From Candidatus Nomurabacteria bacterium (GTDB lineage Bacteria > Patescibacteriota > Minisyncoccia > Phycocordibacterales > UBA9973), in contig CALRCO010000003.1 of NCBI GenBank assembly GCA_943354645.1, forward strand, positions 1 through 32,865: a DNA stretch of 32,865 nt. Direction: 5' to 3'. The notes under the pieces are model-generated. The model made no database searches. It was given only the letters and a program-made list of their open reading frames with translations, and was not told where the DNA came from. The position numbers and the translations under genes were made by a program. This document shows positions 2,685 to 26,850 of the stretch, piece by piece (the stretch's first letter is position 1; each line of letters begins with the position of its first letter).

Positions 2685-4394
2685 CTATTGAATTACTATT
2701 TTCGTCACACTATACGGACGCACTACCATACTTGTTGGATTTTGTATGGATTGTAATGCGGTGAGGGTAACAGGAGAGAATGTTCCAGTGAAATTCTTTT
2801 CTCCATAACTTGAAGAAAGAGCAGATCCATATATTGATTGTGACTGCACTGTTTTACCCGCTGGGACAATTGATGCATTATTTACTTTAATATCTTGTAC
2901 TGCAATTGATTGTCCTGTCCAGTTTGAAACAATGTAGGTGAGTTTATTTGTTGCTGTGTCTTTTGCACCAAGGACTTGCACATCAAGTTGGTCAATGCCT
3001 GTTGGGATTGTGAGAGTGTTCGTATCGAGTAGTTTATGGTTACCGTCAAATACTGATGCAAGTAATTCAAATACATGCATGGTGGTGCGTTTTACCATAC
3101 TGGTGCCAATTTTTTGCACGTTACCGACATCATCTGAAGATGTATCGTACTTACTGATTGCTGCACGATTGTCTCCAACACCATTTAAGTAATACATTGA
3201 TTCAACAACATTATTATGTGCTGCATTGTATTTCATCACCCCCGTGATAAAGTCTGTGGTGAATAGCGCTTGTGCTATGGTGTTGTTTACTGAGAATGCA
3301 CTAAACGTATTTGGGACGACACCATTATTGTCGGTACCCCATGAATTTACCACTATTTTATATCCGGGATACGCACTCATGCGAGCGTCTAATTTTGAAG
3401 GAATGTTACTCGTATAGTGGTGTGTTATTGTTTTGAAACAATCAAATCTTACAGCAGAATCTCCTGTGGTGCAGGTTTGGTCGACATTTTCATCGTTGTC
3501 CATAACCATATAAATACCCGCATAATCAAACCATTTATTTGCCCCCGTGTTTGAGTTTATAAGTGCTGTGTTCCATGCAGTAATAAATGGGTCCTTGGCT
3601 GCATTTAATGGATTAAGAAGTCCAACAACAACTTTTACATCTGGGTGAGCAGATTTTACGCCAAGACTCACTGCTTTTGCACGAGTGATATATGTTTGCG
3701 GATCATTATTAAGGACAGGGCGAACTTTGTTGTCAGAAATTTCAACACCGGCGAGCCATTTATCAACATTGAGTCCTTTTGCTTTTGCGTCTGCGATCAT
3801 ACCAACGTTTTCTGTAATTGCGAGTTGATTACTTGCATCATCCGTTGGGAGAAGTGCAATACTGCCACCACCAGCTTTTTGTGTGCGGATATTACCAAGT
3901 GCGTACAATTTTGCATCACTGCCGAATGCTTGCATAAATGCAGTAAATCGATCCCAATGTTTCCATGTGGTTGTTGCTGTTTTATTTGCCCAATTATTCA
4001 TGGCTGGGTCAGTGTTTCCGGCAGAAGCGAGTTCACTTGGGAGCATTCCTAAATAATTACCTTGCCAATGTGACCAGTTCATTGCTGCTAATAAATTAGG
4101 GTCATAGGAATGTACTCCAGACGCTTTCCATATATCAACGAATCCTGGTTGTTGATCAAAGACAGGAAATGCGCCAGTAAGAGTTGCTCCCATAAAGTAA
4201 TGGTTTATTTTAGGGCCGATAGTTGCTGGAGTGATTACGACTTGACCACCATTATTGTTATTGTGACGCCACGGAAAGAAAACAAGTCCTGAAAGAAATC
4301 CAGGATTACTTGCCGTGTTTGCATATAAAAATAGTCCAAAAAACAAAAAGACTCCGCAAAAAAAGACACCCTTAGTAACATTTTTCACTGACAT
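2685..4394 (-). CDS. Exported glycoside-hydrolase-like protein (TIM-barrel, clan A appearance)
   Basis: The 569-residue protein has an N-terminal hydrophobic segment (about residues 9-27) and an Asn-rich linker HNNNNGG at 44-50. A long domain rich in Trp/Tyr/Asn follows, resembling arabinofuranosidase-like clan A glycosidases, and the C-terminal 130 residues look like a beta-sandwich (LTYIVSNWTGQSIAVQDIKV). WLAGVEISDN contains a candidate acid/base glutamate. KIVVNSWGTDN occupies the place where a nucleophile glutamate would be expected but has Asn, so activity is uncertain. No Cys lipobox is present, so it is anchored by the N-terminal helix or cleaved. The family assignment rests on general appearance only; substrate unknown. 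Confidence 0.5.
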   Translation of the reverse strand: MSVKNVTKGVFFCGVFLFFGLFLYANTASNPGFLSGLVFFPWRHNNNNGGQVVITPATIGPKINHYFMGATLTGAFPVFDQQPGFVDIWKASGVHSYDPNLLAAMNWSHWQGNYLGMLPSELASAGNTDPAMNNWANKTATTTWKHWDRFTAFMQAFGSDAKLYALGNIRTQKAGGGSIALLPTDDASNQLAITENVGMIADAKAKGLNVDKWLAGVEISDNKVRPVLNNDPQTYITRAKAVSLGVKSAHPDVKVVVGLLNPLNAAKDPFITAWNTALINSNTGANKWFDYAGIYMVMDNDENVDQTCTTGDSAVRFDCFKTITHHYTSNIPSKLDARMSAYPGYKIVVNSWGTDNNGVVPNTFSAFSVNNTIAQALFTTDFITGVMKYNAAHNNVVESMYYLNGVGDNRAAISKYDTSSDDVGNVQKIGTSMVKRTTMHVFELLASVFDGNHKLLDTNTLTIPTGIDQLDVQVLGAKDTATNKLTYIVSNWTGQSIAVQDIKVNNASIVPAGKTVQSQSIYGSALSSSYGEKNFTGTFSPVTLTALQSIQNPTSMVVRPYSVTKIVIQ

Positions 4395-10244: not shown

Positions 10245-10604
10245 ATGCACACGCCGCCTCCTTACAAAGAAGAACGACCTTGGGGTTCATTCGAACGATT
10301 TGCCAATAATGAGCAAGTTACCGTTAAATTACTTACCATAAAAGCCGGTGAGGCATTTAGTTTGCAGTCACACAAAATGCGTGATGAGTTTTGGCGAGTA
10401 ATTAGCGGTGATGGATTTATTACACTTGGTGAGGAACGAGTACCGATTGTTGTCGGAAGTGATTATAGTGCGCCACGAGGTACCAAACACCGAGTTGAAG
10501 CTGGAATGACAGACGTACTTATGCTCGAAATAGGACGAGGAAATTTTGATGAACAAGATATTATTCATTTTGAAGATCGGTATGGTCGCACTGATCCGCA
10601 ATAA
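10245..10604 (+). CDS. Phosphomannose isomerase-type cupin (type II PMI C-terminal domain)
   Basis: The 119-residue single-domain cupin resembles the isomerase domain of bifunctional mannose-1-phosphate guanylyltransferase/PMI proteins. PWGSFERF is the family N-terminal signature, LQSHKMRDEFWRVISG is cupin motif 1 with metal-binding His and Glu, and PRGTKHRVEAG is motif 2. It would convert mannose-6-phosphate to fructose-6-phosphate. The guanylyltransferase half is missing, so it is not making GDP-mannose. It heads a cluster with GH130 genes and a phosphomannomutase, which supports the role. Some stand-alone cupins of this kind are uncharacterised, so the reaction is inferred. Confidence 0.8.
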   Translation: MHTPPPYKEERPWGSFERFANNEQVTVKLLTIKAGEAFSLQSHKMRDEFWRVISGDGFITLGEERVPIVVGSDYSAPRGTKHRVEAGMTDVLMLEIGRGNFDEQDIIHFEDRYGRTDPQ

Positions 10605-10626
10605 CTTTTAATTTACTGTAGGATTC

Positions 10627-11724
10627 ATGTCGCTCCTTGCAACAATTATTGTCGTCATCATCTTTAACACCATAGTGGCTGTTGCTGCGCTTATGCTTTT
10701 TGATATGTATAAGCAGTCAGCAAAGAAGTCTACTAAAAAACAAAATAGTGTCGAGCGACATCACAAAAATCCTGTGCTCGCACCTCACCCTGATCATCCA
10801 TGGGAATCGTACAGCACCTTTAATCCAGGTGCAGTGTTGGATGATGATGAGCAAGTGCACTTACTCTATCGTGCGATGGGTGATGATGGGGTTTCGCGTA
10901 TGGGGTATAGTAAAAGTGAGGACGGGTTTCATTTTGGTGAAAAAATCGGTTATCCGGTATTTTCTATGCAGAGTCCACGAAAAATGCATCCAACCATAAT
11001 CAGACGTCCTGACCCAGTGATGTATCCATCTGGAGGAAGTTGGGGAGGATGTGAAGATCCACGCATTGTGCGCATTGGCGATACCATATATGTTACCTTC
11101 AATGCATTTGATGGGTGGGATTTTATTCGCATGGGGTGCGTCTCTATTAATGCAAAAGATTTTTTTGAGAAAAAATGGAACTGGAGCCAGCCGATGCTTA
11201 TCTCACCGCCAGGTGAGTTGCATAAAAACTGGGTATTATTTCCAGAAAAAATTAATGGCAAATTTGCAATTCTCCACAGTATTTATCCAGAGATTTCTAT
11301 TGAGTATGTAAATCGTCTTGAAGATCTTGCAAGTGGTGTACAGGTCATCAAAAGCCCTTGGAAAGACCGTATTCCCAGAGATAGTTGGGATACTTGGCTC
11401 CGAGGCGCAGGACCACCACCATTACGCACTGAGCGCGGGTGGCTCGTCTTGTATCACGCTATGGATGCGTCTGATCCTAATCGCTACAAGTTGGGAGCTT
11501 TTTTGCTTGATTTCCATGATCCAACTAAAATTCTTGCTCGCGCACCGGAACCGCTCCTTGTGCCTGATATGTGGTATGAAAACGCAGAGCCCGGCATTGT
11601 CTATGTGTGTGGTGCACTCATTAAAAAAGATACTCTTTTTATCTATTACGGTGGTGGTAATAAATATGTCTGTGTTGCAACGGCGCCACTTGATCATATT
11701 CTCAATAAATTAGTCGCAGTGTGA
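10627..11724 (+). CDS. GH130-family mannoside phosphorylase-like protein with N-terminal membrane anchor
   Basis: In the 365-residue protein, residues 4-26 form a transmembrane helix, followed by a basic stretch (KQSAKKSTKK). By the positive-inside rule this places the catalytic domain in the cytoplasm. A five-bladed beta-propeller of the GH130 type starts at HHKNPVLAPHPDHPWES and contains NPGAV, LLYRAMGDDGVSRMGY, GGCEDPRIVRIGD (E143-D144-P145-R146) and the late blade motif WLVLYHAMD. The aspartate of EDPR is the likely general acid. Known GH130 enzymes phosphorolyse beta-mannosides to mannose-1-phosphate; some members are hydrolases. It lies 22 nt after the cupin gene. Confidence 0.85.
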   Translation: MSLLATIIVVIIFNTIVAVAALMLFDMYKQSAKKSTKKQNSVERHHKNPVLAPHPDHPWESYSTFNPGAVLDDDEQVHLLYRAMGDDGVSRMGYSKSEDGFHFGEKIGYPVFSMQSPRKMHPTIIRRPDPVMYPSGGSWGGCEDPRIVRIGDTIYVTFNAFDGWDFIRMGCVSINAKDFFEKKWNWSQPMLISPPGELHKNWVLFPEKINGKFAILHSIYPEISIEYVNRLEDLASGVQVIKSPWKDRIPRDSWDTWLRGAGPPPLRTERGWLVLYHAMDASDPNRYKLGAFLLDFHDPTKILARAPEPLLVPDMWYENAEPGIVYVCGALIKKDTLFIYYGGGNKYVCVATAPLDHILNKLVAV

Positions 11725-11730
11725 TACAAT
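11722..11730 (+). promoter_or_regulatory. Extended -10 promoter for the double GH130 gene
   Basis: TGA followed by TACAAT (11725-11730), overlapping the end of the previous gene, 23 nt before the ATG at 11754. Confidence 0.5.
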
Positions 11731-11753
11731 TTTATTAGCATTTTATTTTTTCT

Positions 11754-13634
11754 ATGTTTACTATTAAACGAGATACGCACAATCCACTCTTATCACCACG
11801 TAACGAACGTGATTTTGAAGCAGCGGGTGCATTTAATTGGTCGCCTGCGATTGAAGGAGATACAACGTATGTAGTGTATCGTGCACAAGGTGACCCCATG
11901 TTCCATGAAGGTATTCGTATGTCGCTCTCTTCAATTGCTATTGCTGAGAGTATAGATGGCACTCATTTTACAGATCGCCGACAATATATAAAACCAGAAG
12001 AGGAATGGGACAAGTTTGGTTGTGAAGATCCACGAGTCACGCGTATCGGTGATACAAATTATATTTTTTATACAGGACTTTCAGAGTACCCATTTGGGCC
12101 TAATGGTATTCGCATTGCGATGGTCAAAGCGGATAAAAACATGAAGATTTTAGAGAAACATCCTGTCACGCCATTTAATGCAAAAGCGATGGGACTTTTT
12201 CCTAAAAAAATAAATGGCAAATTTGCCGCATTGCTCACCCCAAACACCGATCTTCCACCATCAGATATTTGCTACGTTGAATTTACGAAAGAATCCGATA
12301 TGTGGTCACAAGAATTTTGGGACAAGTGGTACGCAGATCTCGCATCTCATGTCGTACCGCTTCGCAGAGGTGACAATGACCATGTTGAGCTCGGTGCACC
12401 ACCAGTCTATACCTCAAAAGGGTGGCTCGTGATTTACTCGCACATTCAAAACTATCGCGGAGGCGGAACGCCGACATTCGGTATTGAATTTGTATTGCTT
12501 GATTTAAAAAATCCGCAGAAAATTATTGGACGTACGAAAGGTTCGGTATTTGCCCCAGAGGAGCATTATGAAAAAGTTGGTCATGTTGGCAATATCGTGT
12601 TTCCATCAGGCGCGCTCGTACGAGGTAAAATATTAGAAATATATTATGGTGCCGCAGATACACATTGCTGTATTGCTCGTGCAAATCTCGGCAAGGTAGT
12701 AGATGCACTGTTGCGCAAAGAAGAATTATTTACGCGTAGCCGTCACAATCCAATCCTTGCCCCACGTGAGGGTATCGCATTTGAAGCGCATGGTGCAATA
12801 AATCCTGCAGTGGTTGATATTGATGGCACGATGCATATTTTGTATCGAGCAATTTCAAATGACAATGTCTCGACAGTTGGCTATGCGACAAGTAAGGACG
12901 GGCTCACGATTGACGAGTGCTTCAAAGAACCAATTTATCTTCCTCGGGCAGATTTTGAAAAGCCAGGTGGTTGTGAAGATCCTCGTACGGTGATTGTTGA
13001 TGAGAGAATAATCATGATGTATACCGCATTTGATGGCAATAATGCGCGCGTTGCGGTCACTTCGATTGCAGTAACAGATTTTCTTAAGAAGAAATGGAAT
13101 TGGGAAATGCCGATTAAATTAACGATTCCCGGAGTCTTCGACAAAGATGGTGGCATGATTCCGAAAAAATTTAATGGCAAGTATTTTGTCTTTCATCGCA
13201 TTGATGACAATATTTGTGGTGACTTTGTCGACTCGCTTGATTGGAAAGATGAATCGATTAATACCTGTATTCCATTACTACATCCACGTCCTGGTATGTG
13301 GGATGGTGCAAAAGTGGGGATTGCAGGGCCTCCGATTGAAACAAAAGAAGGATGGTTACTTCTCTATCACGGTGTCTCACCAACACGACATTATCGCGTG
13401 GGGGCAATATTGCTTGATCTTAAAGATCCAACAAAAGTATTGGCCCGAACCGCGACACCTCTTTTTGAACCAAAAGAAAAATATGAATTAGAGGGGGCAA
13501 TGTCCGGCGTTGTCTTTCCGTGTGGTGTTGTTGCTCGCGGTAAGACTATGTTTGTTTATTACGGCGCGGCAGATTTGGTGACCGGCGCAGCAACGGCAGA
13601 TATTAAAACTATTTTAGACACGCTTTCACTTTAA
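11754..13634 (+). CDS. Tandem GH130/GT108-like protein with two complete propeller domains
   Basis: The 626-residue soluble protein carries two full GH130-type beta-propellers. Domain 1 (about 1-318) has RDTHNPLLSPRNERDFE, YVVYRAQGD and GCEDPRVTR (E91-D92-P93-R94). Domain 2 (about 319-626) has SRHNPILAPREGIAFEAHG, ILYRAISNDNVSTVGYA and GGCEDPRTV (E408-D409-P410-R411). Both keep the putative general-acid aspartate and the blade-closing motif ending in YYGAAD. They are divergent, so this is an old duplication. No signal peptide. GH130 proteins are usually single-domain. A GT108-like mannosyltransferase/phosphorylase is the main alternative. The phosphomannomutase gene follows 2 nt after the stop. 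Confidence 0.88.
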   Translation: MFTIKRDTHNPLLSPRNERDFEAAGAFNWSPAIEGDTTYVVYRAQGDPMFHEGIRMSLSSIAIAESIDGTHFTDRRQYIKPEEEWDKFGCEDPRVTRIGDTNYIFYTGLSEYPFGPNGIRIAMVKADKNMKILEKHPVTPFNAKAMGLFPKKINGKFAALLTPNTDLPPSDICYVEFTKESDMWSQEFWDKWYADLASHVVPLRRGDNDHVELGAPPVYTSKGWLVIYSHIQNYRGGGTPTFGIEFVLLDLKNPQKIIGRTKGSVFAPEEHYEKVGHVGNIVFPSGALVRGKILEIYYGAADTHCCIARANLGKVVDALLRKEELFTRSRHNPILAPREGIAFEAHGAINPAVVDIDGTMHILYRAISNDNVSTVGYATSKDGLTIDECFKEPIYLPRADFEKPGGCEDPRTVIVDERIIMMYTAFDGNNARVAVTSIAVTDFLKKKWNWEMPIKLTIPGVFDKDGGMIPKKFNGKYFVFHRIDDNICGDFVDSLDWKDESINTCIPLLHPRPGMWDGAKVGIAGPPIETKEGWLLLYHGVSPTRHYRVGAILLDLKDPTKVLARTATPLFEPKEKYELEGAMSGVVFPCGVVARGKTMFVYYGAADLVTGAATADIKTILDTLSL

Positions 13635-13636
13635 TT

Positions 13637-14395
13637 ATGGATCACATTTCTCCTGCGAATATTAAGTTGGTTGTCTTTGATATAGATGGCACGCTTGCAC
13701 CAAGTAAAAGCCCTGTTGAGCACGACATGGCGTTGTTACTCGCACAATTATTGAACAAAAAATTAGTTGCCGTTATGTCAGGTGGTTCTTATAAGCAAAT
13801 TAGTGAACAATTTGTTGCGTCGTTACCTACAGATATCGATTACAAAAATCTATTTATTTTTCCAACGTGTGGGACAAGTATGTATACATTTGAACAGGGA
13901 ATATGGAAGGAACGATATGCAGATCATTTTGAGAGTGAAGAAAAAAAGATGATTATGGATGCACTTAAACAAGCACTCGATGGAGCAGGATACGTACAAC
14001 CAGCGCAAATATTTGGGGAGATTATCGAAGACCGTGATTCACAGATTACTTTTTCTGCACTTGGTCAATTAGCACCGCTTGATTTAAAATCTACATGGGA
14101 TCCAGATCGATCAAAACGCGCGCATATTATCGAACTCCTTCAATCAAATATCCCAGGATTTGAAGCACGAATTGGTGGGACAACCTCTATCGATATTACT
14201 CGCACGGGGCGTGATAAAGCATTTGGTATTGACGCAATTGTCCGCGAACTCGGTGTACCTATTTCCGAAATGGTTTTTGTCGGCGATTCTCTCGGTGCTG
14301 GTGGAAATGATGAGTCCGTGAAAAAGACAGGCATCGCTACTGTCGCCGTTGCTGATCCTGATGAGACCGCTGTGTTTATCAAAACATTTTTGTAA
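13637..14395 (+). CDS. Phosphomannomutase, HAD type (eukaryotic PMM-like)
   Basis: The 252-residue protein would interconvert mannose-1-phosphate and mannose-6-phosphate. The HAD nucleophile motif is FDIDGTLAPS (D15 nucleophile, D17 acid/base) and motif II is SGGSYKQISEQF. The cap region IGGTTSIDITRTGRDKAFGI matches the substrate-binding segment of eukaryotic PMM, and GDSLGAGGNDESV gives the Mg-binding aspartates. This is the HAD-fold mutase, not the alpha-D-phosphohexomutase (ManB) usual in bacteria. It starts 2 nt after the double GH130 gene, so the two are translationally linked. A related sugar phosphatase is the alternative. Confidence 0.85.
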   Translation: MDHISPANIKLVVFDIDGTLAPSKSPVEHDMALLLAQLLNKKLVAVMSGGSYKQISEQFVASLPTDIDYKNLFIFPTCGTSMYTFEQGIWKERYADHFESEEKKMIMDALKQALDGAGYVQPAQIFGEIIEDRDSQITFSALGQLAPLDLKSTWDPDRSKRAHIIELLQSNIPGFEARIGGTTSIDITRTGRDKAFGIDAIVRELGVPISEMVFVGDSLGAGGNDESVKKTGIATVAVADPDETAVFIKTFL

Positions 14396-14404
14396 AACAT
14401 ATAA

Positions 14405-14447
14405 AATTAAAAAGAGCGGCGCCCTACGGGCGCCGCTCTTTTTAATT
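14405..14447. terminator. GC-rich terminator hairpin, copy 1
   Basis: A perfect 20-bp stem 14405-14424 / 14428-14447 with loop TAC, A-run before and T-run after, serves the convergent ends of the mutase gene and the gene at 14478-14657. The same GC-rich arms recur at 15417-15457 with loop GTA. Confidence 0.92.
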
Positions 14448-18212: not shown

Positions 18213-18851
18213 ATGAAGCAACTTCGTTTAGAATCACTCGCAGATGGTATTTTTGCCATCGTCATTACCTTGCTCGTATTCCATATTCGACTTCCTGAAT
18301 TACCCGTGAATGCAGGGGATGGTGCAATTTGGAATGCAATATTTGATATGCGTACACTCTTTGCAAGTTACGTACTTTCATTTGCGGTGCTCTTTACCTA
18401 TTGGCGTGCCCACCATTTTATTGCATCTGTATACGCAAAAGGAATTGATCAGATGTTTGTGAATATCAATGCGGTCTTTTTTGTGCTTGTTGCACTCGTG
18501 CCATTTTCTGCAGATATGCTCGGTAGATATAGTAAGTCACCGCTTGCGATTATGATTTTTTCTTTTAATATCGTCTGTATTGGTGCGGTGCTCTATTGGA
18601 TGCGGACATATGCAAAACGTGCACAGACAATTGAAAATCAAGATATATCTCCTTCCGAAGAACGTCATGCCATGATGCGCATTATGGTGCCAATGTTCAC
18701 TGCATTATTTGCGGTAATCATTGCGACATACAATACAGACGTAGCACTTGTTGTTCTTACTGCTGGTATTTTATTTAATTTGTCTCGCAGAAGTACTCAC
18801 GTCACCACGCGGATGCTCGGCATTGTCTTTGTTGATTTTAAAGAGAATTAA
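18213..18851 (+). CDS. TMEM175-family (DUF1211) potassium channel-like protein
   Basis: The 212-residue integral membrane protein has about six helices. TM1 carries the family signature RLESLADGIFAIVITLLVFH (residues 5-24). Bacterial TMEM175 proteins have R-x3-FSD here; this one has LAD instead of FSD, keeping the Asp but changing the pore-lining Phe-Ser pair. Further helices lie at about 47-68, 85-106, 114-133 and 148-185. Bacterial homologues are homotetrameric K+ leak channels of low selectivity. The family call is firm; conduction is inferred. Confidence 0.8.
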   Translation: MKQLRLESLADGIFAIVITLLVFHIRLPELPVNAGDGAIWNAIFDMRTLFASYVLSFAVLFTYWRAHHFIASVYAKGIDQMFVNINAVFFVLVALVPFSADMLGRYSKSPLAIMIFSFNIVCIGAVLYWMRTYAKRAQTIENQDISPSEERHAMMRIMVPMFTALFAVIIATYNTDVALVVLTAGILFNLSRRSTHVTTRMLGIVFVDFKEN

Positions 18852-20404: not shown

Positions 20405-21149
20405 ATTTCAATCCCAACTGTTCCAAGAGAGATTCTTTTTGTTTTAGGGTAAGTGGTTGAAGAATGTTTGCTGGCACGTGGTCGATTTTAAATGAAAGCA
20501 ATCGCACGCGTACGAGCTGACGCACGCTGTAACCAAATTTATCACACATACGGCGCACTTGGTGATGCTTGCCTTCGGTGAGGGTAATTCGGAAGCTCGT
20601 ATTCGTAATCCATTTCACTTGTGCGGGTTTTGTTTTAAATTCTTCAAGCTGGACACCACGCGAAAGCGCATTCAAAAATGTTTGCGTGATTGCCTTGTCG
20701 ACAGTGACTTCGTATTCTTTTTCATGATCAAATTGTGGTTCGAGTAATCGCTTCGGTACACGGCGATCATTCGTGAGCAAGAGCAATCCTTCTGATTCTT
20801 TATCAAGTCGCCCTACCGGCACCACACCGTTTGGAATACGCACCAAGTCTTTGATTTCTTTCTCTTTCATCTTGGTGGTGCGCACTGCGTTTACCGTCAC
20901 GACACCTCGTGGTTTGTTGTACAAGAAATACTGATAGGGAACTGCCGTTCTATTTTTTACTTCCACATTATCCGTTGGCTGTACCATATCGCCCAACTTT
21001 GCCGGTTTACCATTGATAAATACTTTTTTAGCAACAATAAGTTCATCACCTTCACGTCGTGAGGCAAGACCGTTATCGGCTAAATATTTATTGATACGCA
21101 CTCCTGTTCGAGTTGGTTTGTTATCTGGTGTCTTTGAGTTTGATTGCAT
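20403..21149 (-). CDS. rluB: RsuA/RluB-family pseudouridine synthase
   Basis: The 248-residue protein would convert a uridine in rRNA to pseudouridine. An S4 RNA-binding domain occupies about residues 16-64 (GVRINKYLADNGLASRREGD), followed by the synthase domain with YNKPRGVVTV and the catalytic motif VGRLDKESEGLLLLTND (D116). Features fit RluB (23S rRNA position 2605 in E. coli) better than the 16S enzyme RsuA, but the target cannot be fixed from sequence alone. The start overlaps the 3' end of the upstream MFS gene by 29 bp, so the two are co-transcribed and probably translationally coupled. Confidence 0.9.
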   Translation of the reverse strand: MQSNSKTPDNKPTRTGVRINKYLADNGLASRREGDELIVAKKVFINGKPAKLGDMVQPTDNVEVKNRTAVPYQYFLYNKPRGVVTVNAVRTTKMKEKEIKDLVRIPNGVVPVGRLDKESEGLLLLTNDRRVPKRLLEPQFDHEKEYEVTVDKAITQTFLNALSRGVQLEEFKTKPAQVKWITNTSFRITLTEGKHHQVRRMCDKFGYSVRQLVRVRLLSFKIDHVPANILQPLTLKQKESLLEQLGLK

Positions 21150-22281
21150 AATAGAGTCCTGACAATACCACGATTCCTAAAATAAAGAAAAGGACGCCAT
21201 AGGAAGAGAAAAATAAGATTGCGCTACCGAGTAATGGCCCAATGATAAATGCGGTCGGTGCAGTGAGTCGGTAAGTAGATAACATGCTCGTATCGCGCTC
21301 GCCGATTTGTTTGAAAAAATATATTTCCGCCATACATTCGATAGTTGCAGCACCGATACGAGACAGAAACAATAATCCTGCCCATGCATACAGTGTTGCG
21401 TCGGCAAAAAAAGGAACAAGAAGACATGATAATCCCATCACACATAACCCCGAAATCAGTAGCTCTTTTTCTCCAAGATTTGTATCTGCAAGTTTACCAA
21501 GCGGATATTGCAATATGACAAATGCCGCGAGCATGACGGTAAACATAATACCGACCTCTTCCCAAGAAAATCCTAAATGTTTTACAAGGTATACGGGAAG
21601 AAACACAATCATCCATGAATAAAAAAGTTGGAGAATAAAATTAACGGATGCAATGTTGCGTAAGTTTTTATTGGCGAGGAGGGCACTGATCCCGTGTCTA
21701 AAAGAAATTGTTTTGTATACAGGATTTTTATAGCCACGCAATTTGCTGCCGAGGAATAAAAACGTACAGAGAACAAATACCATCGAGAGGCCATAGAGCA
21801 TTGTAAACCCATAATGCGCTAAGATGTAGCCGGAGATAAGCGGTGCAAACATCCATGCAATATTTAAGACAGTGAGATAAATACCCCGCATACGTCCTGT
21901 TTCTGATGGAATAGGGTTGACGTGTTCAATAAAAAGATCAAATGCGTACATGATTGCAGAGTTGGTGGCAAGATACGCGACGAAGGCACCAATGATAAGT
22001 ATTGGCCCTGATCCTTGGCCGATAAAAAATAAGGCGAATAAATTCACCATTAAAAACAAAAGCGCGTATTGTCGATTGCCGATGTTGCGGATGATGCGAG
22101 GAGCAAGTCCAAGCATGACGAGTGCGCAAAAAGCCCCCACACTGTAGATGAGACCAATCCACACTTCAGGAACAAAGTGACCAAGATACGTTGAGTTGAT
22201 GTATGCCGCAAGTGCGCCTTGCAATCCGAAACAAAAACTTGCGATGTAGATGTACTTTGTAAATTTTGAGTGACGGAACAT
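21121..22281 (-). CDS. Major facilitator superfamily transporter
   Basis: The 386-residue protein has about 12 hydrophobic helices and an MFS layout: SVGAFCALVMLGLAPRIIRN in the first half, GRMRGIYLTVLNIAWMFAPL near TM5, a central cytoplasmic loop RGYKNPVYKTISFRHG and the second-half YPLGKLADTNLGEKEL motif-A equivalent (G-x3-D). No binding-site residue points to a substrate; sugar or drug export/import are both possible. A -10 TATACT ends 6 nt before the ATG (leaderless). First gene of a two-gene unit with the rluB gene. Confidence 0.82.
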   Translation of the reverse strand: MFRHSKFTKYIYIASFCFGLQGALAAYINSTYLGHFVPEVWIGLIYSVGAFCALVMLGLAPRIIRNIGNRQYALLFLMVNLFALFFIGQGSGPILIIGAFVAYLATNSAIMYAFDLFIEHVNPIPSETGRMRGIYLTVLNIAWMFAPLISGYILAHYGFTMLYGLSMVFVLCTFLFLGSKLRGYKNPVYKTISFRHGISALLANKNLRNIASVNFILQLFYSWMIVFLPVYLVKHLGFSWEEVGIMFTVMLAAFVILQYPLGKLADTNLGEKELLISGLCVMGLSCLLVPFFADATLYAWAGLLFLSRIGAATIECMAEIYFFKQIGERDTSMLSTYRLTAPTAFIIGPLLGSAILFFSSYGVLFFILGIVVLSGLYYAIKLKDTR

Positions 22282-25104: not shown

Positions 25105-26850
25105 TTAATTAATAGGCGCTATTTGATTTTTGTTTTTTGCAAAAAATTTCCAAACACTATCGGTGCGTACATACCAGGTGTATGCGTTGCGGAACTGTTC
25201 TCCTTGATAGGTGCTTGCGGTTGGAGTGAAGTTGTTGATTTGTTTTTGCATAATATAGATAGCGTCTGGTTCATACAAAAATACTGCGGGTGCATCTTTC
25301 ACTAATAGTTGCTCGAGTGAGCTATAGAGTGTTTTTGCTTTTGCTTGATCGGTTTCTTTCGGTGCGGATTCAAGTATCGAGTCTACTTTTGTATTCGCAT
25401 ACAACGCAACATTGAGTCCTGGGTCATTTCGTTCACCTGAGTGCCAAAACGAATAAAGATCTGCTGGTGTGTTTACAATTTGACCAAAAAGCAAGGCTTC
25501 ATATTCACGTGGTCGGATGATTGTCTGATTTAAAATACCTACTTCGTACACTTTGAGTTCAACGCTCATGCCGATTGCTTCCAAATCTTGTTTGACGAGT
25601 TCTGCTGCTTTGCGGAGTTCAGGTGCATCACCTGTCGAGATAGAGAAGGCGAGGCGAGTGCTCCCTTTTTTAAGGATGCCGTCGGTATCTTTTGTGTATC
25701 CAGCTTTTGTGAGTATGTTTTTTGCAGCATCCGCGTCTACCTTCTGCGGCGTAATGGAACCATCTTTAAACATTTCTGGGATTGGTCCTTGCGCAACGTG
25801 GCCATAACCCAATAATACTTCATTTACGATTTGTTGTTTATCAACGGCGAGATTAATTGCATCAATGACAGCGCGATCGGTAAATAACGGTGCTTGTGAT
25901 TGATTAAAAAATAAAGAAAAAATTCGTGGCAGTGGTGAGTGCGTAATGGTGTACTTTTCTTGTGCGAGAGCTTCTGTTTTTTCTGGTGAAATATTACTGA
26001 TCATATCGACATTGTTGCCGGTAAATCCTGCAACAAGGTCTCGTTCATTTGTGTACACAATAAAATCAAGATGTTCAATATATGCACGACCTGGTGCAAA
26101 ATGAGAAAATGCGCGAAGTGCATATTTTGTCGGCGTACCTTCGCTGTTATTTGTAATCTTACTTATTTTATAAGCACCACTGCCGATTGCTTGTTCGTTC
26201 AAATTAGTAAGCGCAAATGTATCTGCGGTAACATTCTCCCATACATGTTTTGGTAAAATACCTACTGTTGCACTTTCGAGAAATGGTGCAAATGGTTGTT
26301 TGAGTGTAAAGACGACGGTTTTTGCATCTGGCGCAGCTACCTCGATACCTTCAAAAAGGGGGCGCTTCGGACTTTTAATGAGTGGATCTTGGATTTTAGT
26401 AATAGTGTAAACAACATCATCTGCAGTGAGTGCTTTACCATCATGAAAAGTAAGTTTGTCGCGCAAAGTAAATGTGTACACTAAGCCGTTTGGAGAGACG
26501 GTGTAGCTTTGTGCTGCGTCAGGTGTAAGTGTACCTGTTTCATCTTTATGTATGAGTCCACTGTAGACCACAGAGGTAAGTGTTTTGTCTGCTTCTGAAA
26601 TTGCGAGCACAGGGTTGATGAATCTCGGTGTACCGACGATACCAGCTCGAACCGTGCCGCCGTGTGCAGGTATTTTGACGATGAAATGATTATTGATAGC
26701 GACGAGTATTGAAAAAGTGGTAATACCAAGCGCTATAATAAGACCAACAAACAAAAACCATTCGCGTTTAGTAAGCCCGCGCATTGCTTCGCGGAGTTCT
26801 GTTTTTGAGGGCATACGCCACTTCTTTATAGATTGTAAGAGAGTGCTCAT
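25105..26850 (-). CDS. Extracellular peptide-binding protein (SBP family 5, DppA/OppA type)
   Basis: The 581-residue solute-binding protein is of the peptide/nickel ABC importer type. A membrane helix at about residues 30-53 anchors it; there is no lipobox Cys. The binding domain starts at GGTVRAGIVGTPRFINPVLA and carries the family signature FTLRDKLTFHDGKALTADDVVYTI, then AIDAINLAVDKQQIVNEV-type sequence in the middle. No permease or ATPase gene is nearby, so its translocator must be elsewhere or it acts as a receptor. In the group secG - this gene - RNase J gene; 71 nt separate it from secG. Confidence 0.88.
   Translation of the reverse strand: MSTLLQSIKKWRMPSKTELREAMRGLTKREWFLFVGLIIALGITTFSILVAINNHFIVKIPAHGGTVRAGIVGTPRFINPVLAISEADKTLTSVVYSGLIHKDETGTLTPDAAQSYTVSPNGLVYTFTLRDKLTFHDGKALTADDVVYTITKIQDPLIKSPKRPLFEGIEVAAPDAKTVVFTLKQPFAPFLESATVGILPKHVWENVTADTFALTNLNEQAIGSGAYKISKITNNSEGTPTKYALRAFSHFAPGRAYIEHLDFIVYTNERDLVAGFTGNNVDMISNISPEKTEALAQEKYTITHSPLPRIFSLFFNQSQAPLFTDRAVIDAINLAVDKQQIVNEVLLGYGHVAQGPIPEMFKDGSITPQKVDADAAKNILTKAGYTKDTDGILKKGSTRLAFSISTGDAPELRKAAELVKQDLEAIGMSVELKVYEVGILNQTIIRPREYEALLFGQIVNTPADLYSFWHSGERNDPGLNVALYANTKVDSILESAPKETDQAKAKTLYSSLEQLLVKDAPAVFLYEPDAIYIMQKQINNFTPTASTYQGEQFRNAYTWYVRTDSVWKFFAKNKNQIAPIN

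Follow-up and report, generated by a model that had tools for sequence, protein, structure and literature searches.

A conserved GH130 operon of Patescibacteria with three unequal propellers and a possible role in beta-1,2-mannoside storage

To our knowledge little is established about energy reserves in the Patescibacteria, and one locus in a Candidatus Nomurabacteria genome raises the question of what a small set of mannose genes is doing there. The window analysed here is a stretch of 32,865 nucleotides, the forward strand of contig CALRCO010000003.1 from position 1. An earlier note, made from the letters alone, described four consecutive plus-strand genes for a PMI-type cupin, three propellers in two GH130 proteins, and a HAD mutase. 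It proposed that they lead from a beta-mannoside through mannose-1-phosphate and mannose-6-phosphate to fructose-6-phosphate, either for scavenging or for a reversible intracellular store. The gene set is as described. The coordinates and reading frames were verified, all four frames are intact under translation table 11, and all four proteins score above their Pfam family cut-offs. The features are:

10245..10604, plus strand: MannoseP_isomer cupin, 119 aa (PF01050, 62 bits), predicted mannose-6-phosphate isomerase
10627..11724, plus strand: GH130a, membrane-anchored single GH130 propeller, 365 aa (PF04041, 117 bits)
10636..10698, plus strand: N-terminal transmembrane helix of GH130a (about aa 4-24), from hydropathy and charge pattern
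10741..11721, plus strand: propeller A (in GH130a), presumed phosphate pocket rearranged
11754..13634, plus strand: GH130bc, double GH130 propeller, 626 aa (PF04041 in two stretches, 324 bits in all)
11754..12719, plus strand: propeller B (in GH130bc), mannose -1 site kept, basic phosphate ligands lost
12720..13631, plus strand: propeller C (in GH130bc), putative canonical beta-1,2-mannoside phosphorylase site
13637..14395, plus strand: HAD-type alpha-phosphohexomutase, 252 aa (PF03332, 42.8 bits), predicted mannose-1-phosphate/mannose-6-phosphate mutase
14405..14447, no strand assigned: bidirectional intrinsic terminator at the operon end (20-bp stem, -34.4 kcal/mol, z -6.7)

The gaps from the cupin to the HAD gene are 22, 29 and 2 bp. 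A CTP synthase gene on the same strand ends 83 bp upstream of the cupin gene and is outside the conserved set. These three GH130 domains are the only ones in the 573-kb assembly (52 contigs, 88% complete). Genetic code 25 was rejected; table 25 would lengthen GH130a alone, by stop read-through.

The GH130 family and its phosphorolytic chemistry are already known. The Glyco_hydro_130 profile matches all three propellers over its cut-off, and by sequence their closest solved structures are the beta-1,2-mannan phosphorylases Teth514_1788 and Teth514_1789; for propeller C the best solved relatives are 9fj8 and 7fip. AlphaFold models of A (pLDDT 89.4) and B (pLDDT 96.4) have the five-bladed propeller fold, which is assigned to C by sequence only. 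Foldseek places 7fip and 9fj8 first for A, while B reaches TM 0.81-0.82 against the Teth514 enzymes; the range for both models is 0.74-0.82 by query length. The GT108 MTPs of Leishmania rank lower against the same models (TM 0.53-0.64, by query length), and no GT108 entry matched the propeller B profile at E<=10. GT108 membership was rejected on these two grounds, and the sequences, together with the models of A and B, place the propellers in GH130, nearest to the Teth514 enzymes.

Beta-1,2 is the most probable linkage, and besides the nearest relatives two marker residues point to it. The GH130_NC cluster has Glu, not Tyr, preceding the catalytic Asp (PMC4264767), and this Glu is present in 105/105 A, 108/108 B and 125/125 C domains. 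Lys199 of BT3780 was reported to determine beta-1,2 specificity (PMC4599007). By alignment, from which the correspondence is inferred, a Lys occupies this position in every domain as well (A 105/105, B 108/108, C 125/125). A beta-1,4-mannan reading (GH130_1/2) was rejected because such structures rank far lower and because the Glu and Lys markers are those of the beta-1,2 enzymes of GH130_NC.

The three propellers do not have equivalent active sites. Domains were gathered from about 110 loci, and the three presumed phosphate-ligand positions were inferred from alignment to the Teth514 enzymes and residue spacing, not taken from a structure, with what we take to be the phosphate ligands of UhgbMP as an extra guide. 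Almost no variation is seen across A, B and C in the Asn, Arg, Glu-Asp and presumed beta-1,2 Lys, and the catalytic Asp and the -1 mannose residues (Asn, Asp, terminal Asp) are complete in B and C. On these alignments only propeller C has all three presumed phosphate ligands. Its site comprises R482, K520, H539 and Y547 along with E408, D409, K464 and D607, and its relatives have R (125/125), K or R (124/125) and H (125/125) at the ligand positions, as well as Y (125/125). Propeller B keeps the mannose -1 site (N28, E91, D92 and D302) and K144, and has T162, H210 and S229 at the phosphate positions. The relatives of B have T or S (A or G in five), then H or Q, then S, A or C, so that the basic ligands are lost in 108/108; all 108/108 also have a Glu (E212) two residues past the second phosphate position. 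Propeller A of the window keeps E143/D144 and K200, with S218, L258, R259 and H277 at the presumed phosphate pocket. Its relatives mostly have S, N, G or A, then a hydrophobic residue plus Arg (83/105), then His (92/105). About one fifth of A domains retain R and K at the phosphate positions. The A domain of the window belongs with the altered ones, and N345 replaces its terminal Asp, unlike 104/105 of the set.

The earlier note assumed GH130 phosphorolysis without separating the propellers. A phosphorylase reading suits C, with its full ligands, and fails for B, while A is rearranged. Since two of the three phosphate sites are altered, one clear phosphorylase is left. The note would have given up its reading had every propeller lost the basic phosphate-binding residues, and C retains them. 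C, A and B make a natural series for the loss of a phosphate site in a phosphorylase propeller. The BT3780-type GH130 beta-1,2-mannosidases (PMC4599007) are like propeller B in having the mannose site and the specificity Lys without basic phosphate ligands. However, B is nearer to the Teth514 enzymes in fold and sequence, and for the carboxylates Glu227 and Glu268 of BT3780 it has one nearby invariant Glu (E212) as a candidate equivalent.

In the tree A and B are separate groups, each with full support; A joins C and B stands apart. This grouping implies that the propeller triplication is old, and its parts appear to have been passed on together. Single GH130s from other Patescibacteria cluster with Teth514. 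A second GH130 type in the phylum (loci L079-L098) has one propeller and a canonical phosphate site; its frequent neighbours are glycosyltransferase-like genes carrying a CGIAT(F/Y)T motif.

The Teth514 enzymes of Thermoanaerobacter are the closest to the window's propellers in sequence and fold. They share the mannose site and the Glu before the catalytic Asp, and they too are adjacent genes, of different chain-length preference. They differ in that each is a single-domain protein of its own, and their cluster also contains an ABC importer, GH5, GT4 and a guanylyltransferase. In the window three propellers sit in two proteins with an isomerase and a mutase, and A and B form fully supported groups of their own.

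Both flanking enzymes bear on the route. The cupin has the conserved motif SLQ-x-H-xx-R-x-E ... H (Q41, H43, R46, E48 and H82 in 69/69 relatives), and this set of metal-binding residues in a MannoseP_isomer domain predicts a type II mannose-6-phosphate isomerase. The fourth gene had been called a eukaryotic-type HAD phosphomannomutase. The HAD part is right: TIGR01484 (HAD-IIB) matches over its cut-off and the DxD is invariant (D15 and D17 in 58/58, K194 in 57/58, D225 in 57/58). The eukaryotic part is not, as the best solved relative is 4bnd, the alpha-phosphoglucomutase of Lactococcus lactis, at 154 bits versus 58 bits for eukaryotic PMM. The residues Q144, K151, W154, D155 and R161 are shared with 4bnd. 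HAD-type alpha-PGM/PMM is the better name; a preference for glucose or mannose is not readable from the sequence. The L. lactis enzyme differs in its neighbours, since mannan and not glucan enzymes adjoin the window's mutase. A relative without GH130 (G007) has a 33%-identical HAD mutase adjoining GT5 glycogen synthase, GH57 and a Phosphorylase-family gene (L100:5457-10964), where it probably serves a glucan store.

The distribution of the module was examined in 60 relatives, of which 16 have GH130bc (47-54% identity) and 44 do not. A candidate mannose-6-phosphate isomerase is found in 16/16 of the former versus 5/44 of the latter (p 1.4e-10), and a strong cupin in 12/16 versus 1/44. PGI/PMI (PF10432) is present in exactly the four module genomes that have no cupin and in 0/12 of those with one (12:4, p 5e-4). 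It adjoins the GH130 genes on the same contig in G054 and G057, with locus L047 as an example of such a neighbourhood, and the swap has occurred in four genera from four families. A HAD or PGM/PMM mutase is present in 14/16 module genomes, and isomerase and mutase occur together in 14/16 versus 3/44. These statistics count related genomes and thus overstate independence. The two module genomes without either mutase (G016 and G054) have another HAD gene in the cluster, HAD2, a candidate for a third kind of hexose-phosphate mutase. HAD2 is a highly conserved HAD-IIB protein (L041:5082-5849, L047:6920-7669). A PgmG-like mutase lies within one cluster (L037, G033), and the cupin is fused to GH130 in another (L048, G053).

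Beyond this survey there are at least 558 double-propeller relatives among GTDB representatives. GH130 occurs in 55/380 sampled genomes of the phylum, part of them of the three-propeller kind. Named carriers in GTDB are Nomurabacteria, Taylorbacteria, Zambryskibacteria, Wolfebacteria, Magasanikbacteria, Levybacteria and others. GH130a directly precedes GH130bc nearly always where contig ends permit, and at one locus (L077) all propellers are in one fused protein of 1281 aa. Among 82 loci with GH130bc a HAD mutase is nearby in 47 and a cupin in 57. Across 118 loci the only co-directional partners that recur with a clear link to the module are the cupin, the HAD mutase, a nucleotidyltransferase (16) and a second HAD (7). 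The gene set recurs at dozens of Patescibacteria loci, so it is beyond chance. The module is also seen in MAGs labelled Nanoarchaeota, Omnitrophota, Bacteroidetes and Rickettsiales (L123, L152, L166, L170, L181, L184), which are either gene transfers or misbinned Patescibacteria contigs.

We argue that the co-occurrence and replacement of the isomerase and mutase support the route fructose-6-phosphate <-> mannose-6-phosphate <-> mannose-1-phosphate <-> beta-1,2-mannoside. This is the route of the earlier note, and its two connecting enzymes accompany the GH130 pair even when swapped for unrelated enzymes of the same named function. Such replacements argue for the pathway without experiment. 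Gene content, conservation, displacement of isomerase and mutase, and site residues are all computed observations.

The window genome gives the route a particular setting. No match to NTP_transferase, PGM/PMM, PGI, PGI/PMI or PFK was found in it, and since it is 88% complete these absences are provisional. Transketolase is present. The sole recognised route from fructose-6-phosphate to a hexose-1-phosphate in this genome passes through mannose. If a cell has fructose-6-phosphate but no route to glucose-6-phosphate, mannose and not glucose would be the natural storage sugar.

We consider it fairly probable, though well short of certain, that the operon serves reversible intracellular beta-1,2-mannoside metabolism, likely a mannogen-like store. 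From the computed results we infer the linkage, the direction, the storage role and the activities of A and B. The cupin would act as the mannose-6-phosphate isomerase and the HAD protein as the mannose-1-phosphate/mannose-6-phosphate mutase. Propeller C would be a phosphorylase, using mannose-1-phosphate to extend beta-1,2-mannan or inorganic phosphate to cut it back. A and B would have different actions on these chains: we guess that A makes or phosphorolyses chains of particular lengths, and that B hydrolyses, trims or binds them. The store would be filled from fructose-6-phosphate and returned to it, with transketolase as the link in this genome. Phosphorylases are reversible, and because free phosphate is usually at levels that push them towards breakdown, there is no guarantee of net synthesis. 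It also counts against this reading that two of the three phosphate sites are altered, that no priming activity was identified and that the nearest characterised relative of the HAD protein is a glucose-1-phosphate mutase.

Scavenging, the other purpose that the earlier note allowed, fits less well, and we regard it as unlikely. The general view that Patescibacteria live in dependence on other cells counts in its favour. Beta-1,2-manno-oligosaccharides from a host or neighbour would be imported and then phosphorolysed, as Chiku et al. propose for Thermoanaerobacter by ABC import and Teth514_1788/1789 (PMC4264767), and the enzyme type is the same. The window even has possible importers, an SBP_bac_5 protein (25105-26850) and an MFS protein (21121-22281). 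However, neither a transporter nor a glycosidase, secreted or otherwise, recurs beside the module across the 118 loci. The location of the proteins points the same way. No N-terminal signal or transmembrane segment was seen in GH130bc. The helix of GH130a has a mean hydropathy of 2.93 over 19 aa, with no K or R ahead of it and a net +4 behind, where a lysine-rich segment follows, and by the positive-inside rule its propeller is predicted to be cytosolic. The internal store is favoured by the mannose-only route to hexose-1-phosphate, by the glucan cluster of G007 and by the lack of a recurring transporter or glycosidase.

A supply of mannose-1-phosphate for nucleotide-mannose and a glycoconjugate, with the GH130s as salvage enzymes, is decidedly improbable. 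A nucleotidyltransferase related to the HldE C-domain does accompany the module at some loci, in one case fused to the HAD mutase (415 aa) and adjoining the GH130 genes (L062:8211-9458), and a guanylyltransferase-like gene lies beside the module at L063. Given these added genes, mannose-1-phosphate may feed other products in some relatives. This cannot be the core purpose, however, since neither family was found in the window genome or in module-bearing G050 (100% complete) and G054 (93%). The earlier note had already set GDP-mannose synthesis aside, seeing no guanylyltransferase or glycosyltransferase. The first absence extends to NTP_transferase in the whole 88%-complete assembly and the second holds near the module, the region checked; with no match to an HldE-C-like nucleotidyltransferase in the genome either, GDP-mannose as the core purpose was rejected here. 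A relative (G019) has a run of nucleotidyltransferase, HAD mutase and cupin without GH130, downstream of a GT4 glycosyltransferase (L099:5868-7430).

Least probable of all is a short beta-1,2-mannoside (osmolyte or signal) or envelope-bound chain in place of a reserve: C alone is a clear phosphorylase and GH130a N-termini (n=105) have a transmembrane helix (29, the window included), a lysine-rich tail (30) or an extra N-terminal domain (34), but no exporter or lipid-linked acceptor enzyme recurs at the 118 loci, and the presence of three propellers, presumably differing in the chains they prefer, speaks for products larger than a disaccharide.

The store we prefer may work like the mannogen system of Leishmania, in which GT108 MTPs also combine a five-bladed propeller, beta-1,2-mannan, mannose-1-phosphate chemistry and several propellers with different roles (PMC8950772). 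The supply of GDP-mannose is a difference, as it was not found in the window genome. One can imagine a broader scenario, which we put forward tentatively and with somewhat more doubt than belief. In many Patescibacteria intracellular beta-1,2-mannan would replace glycogen, made and used by the three-propeller pair, with B a new non-phosphorolytic GH130 activity and the whole a counterpart of Leishmania mannogen reached by a separate route. In that scenario the lack of a route to glucose-6-phosphate would explain mannan instead of glycogen in this lineage. The module is common, small and amenable to tests with purified enzymes. The literature searched, mostly non-subscription, contained neither the three-propeller arrangement (one canonical and two altered sites) nor its wide distribution in the phylum nor the reserve reading, so an earlier description is possible. 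The sole remark found on GH130 in Patescibacteria concerns a Microgenomates genome with two GH130 enzymes that lack a signal (PMC7143001).

Three other genes of the window may be recorded. The minus strand at 2685-4394 codes for a 569-aa protein with a signal-like N-terminus that looks like a secreted enzyme and had no match in Pfam, NCBIfam or PDB sequence searches. A free-standing LAGLIDADG endonuclease is at 1000-1668 on the minus strand, and a TMEM175-like potassium channel gene is at 18213-18851 on the plus strand.
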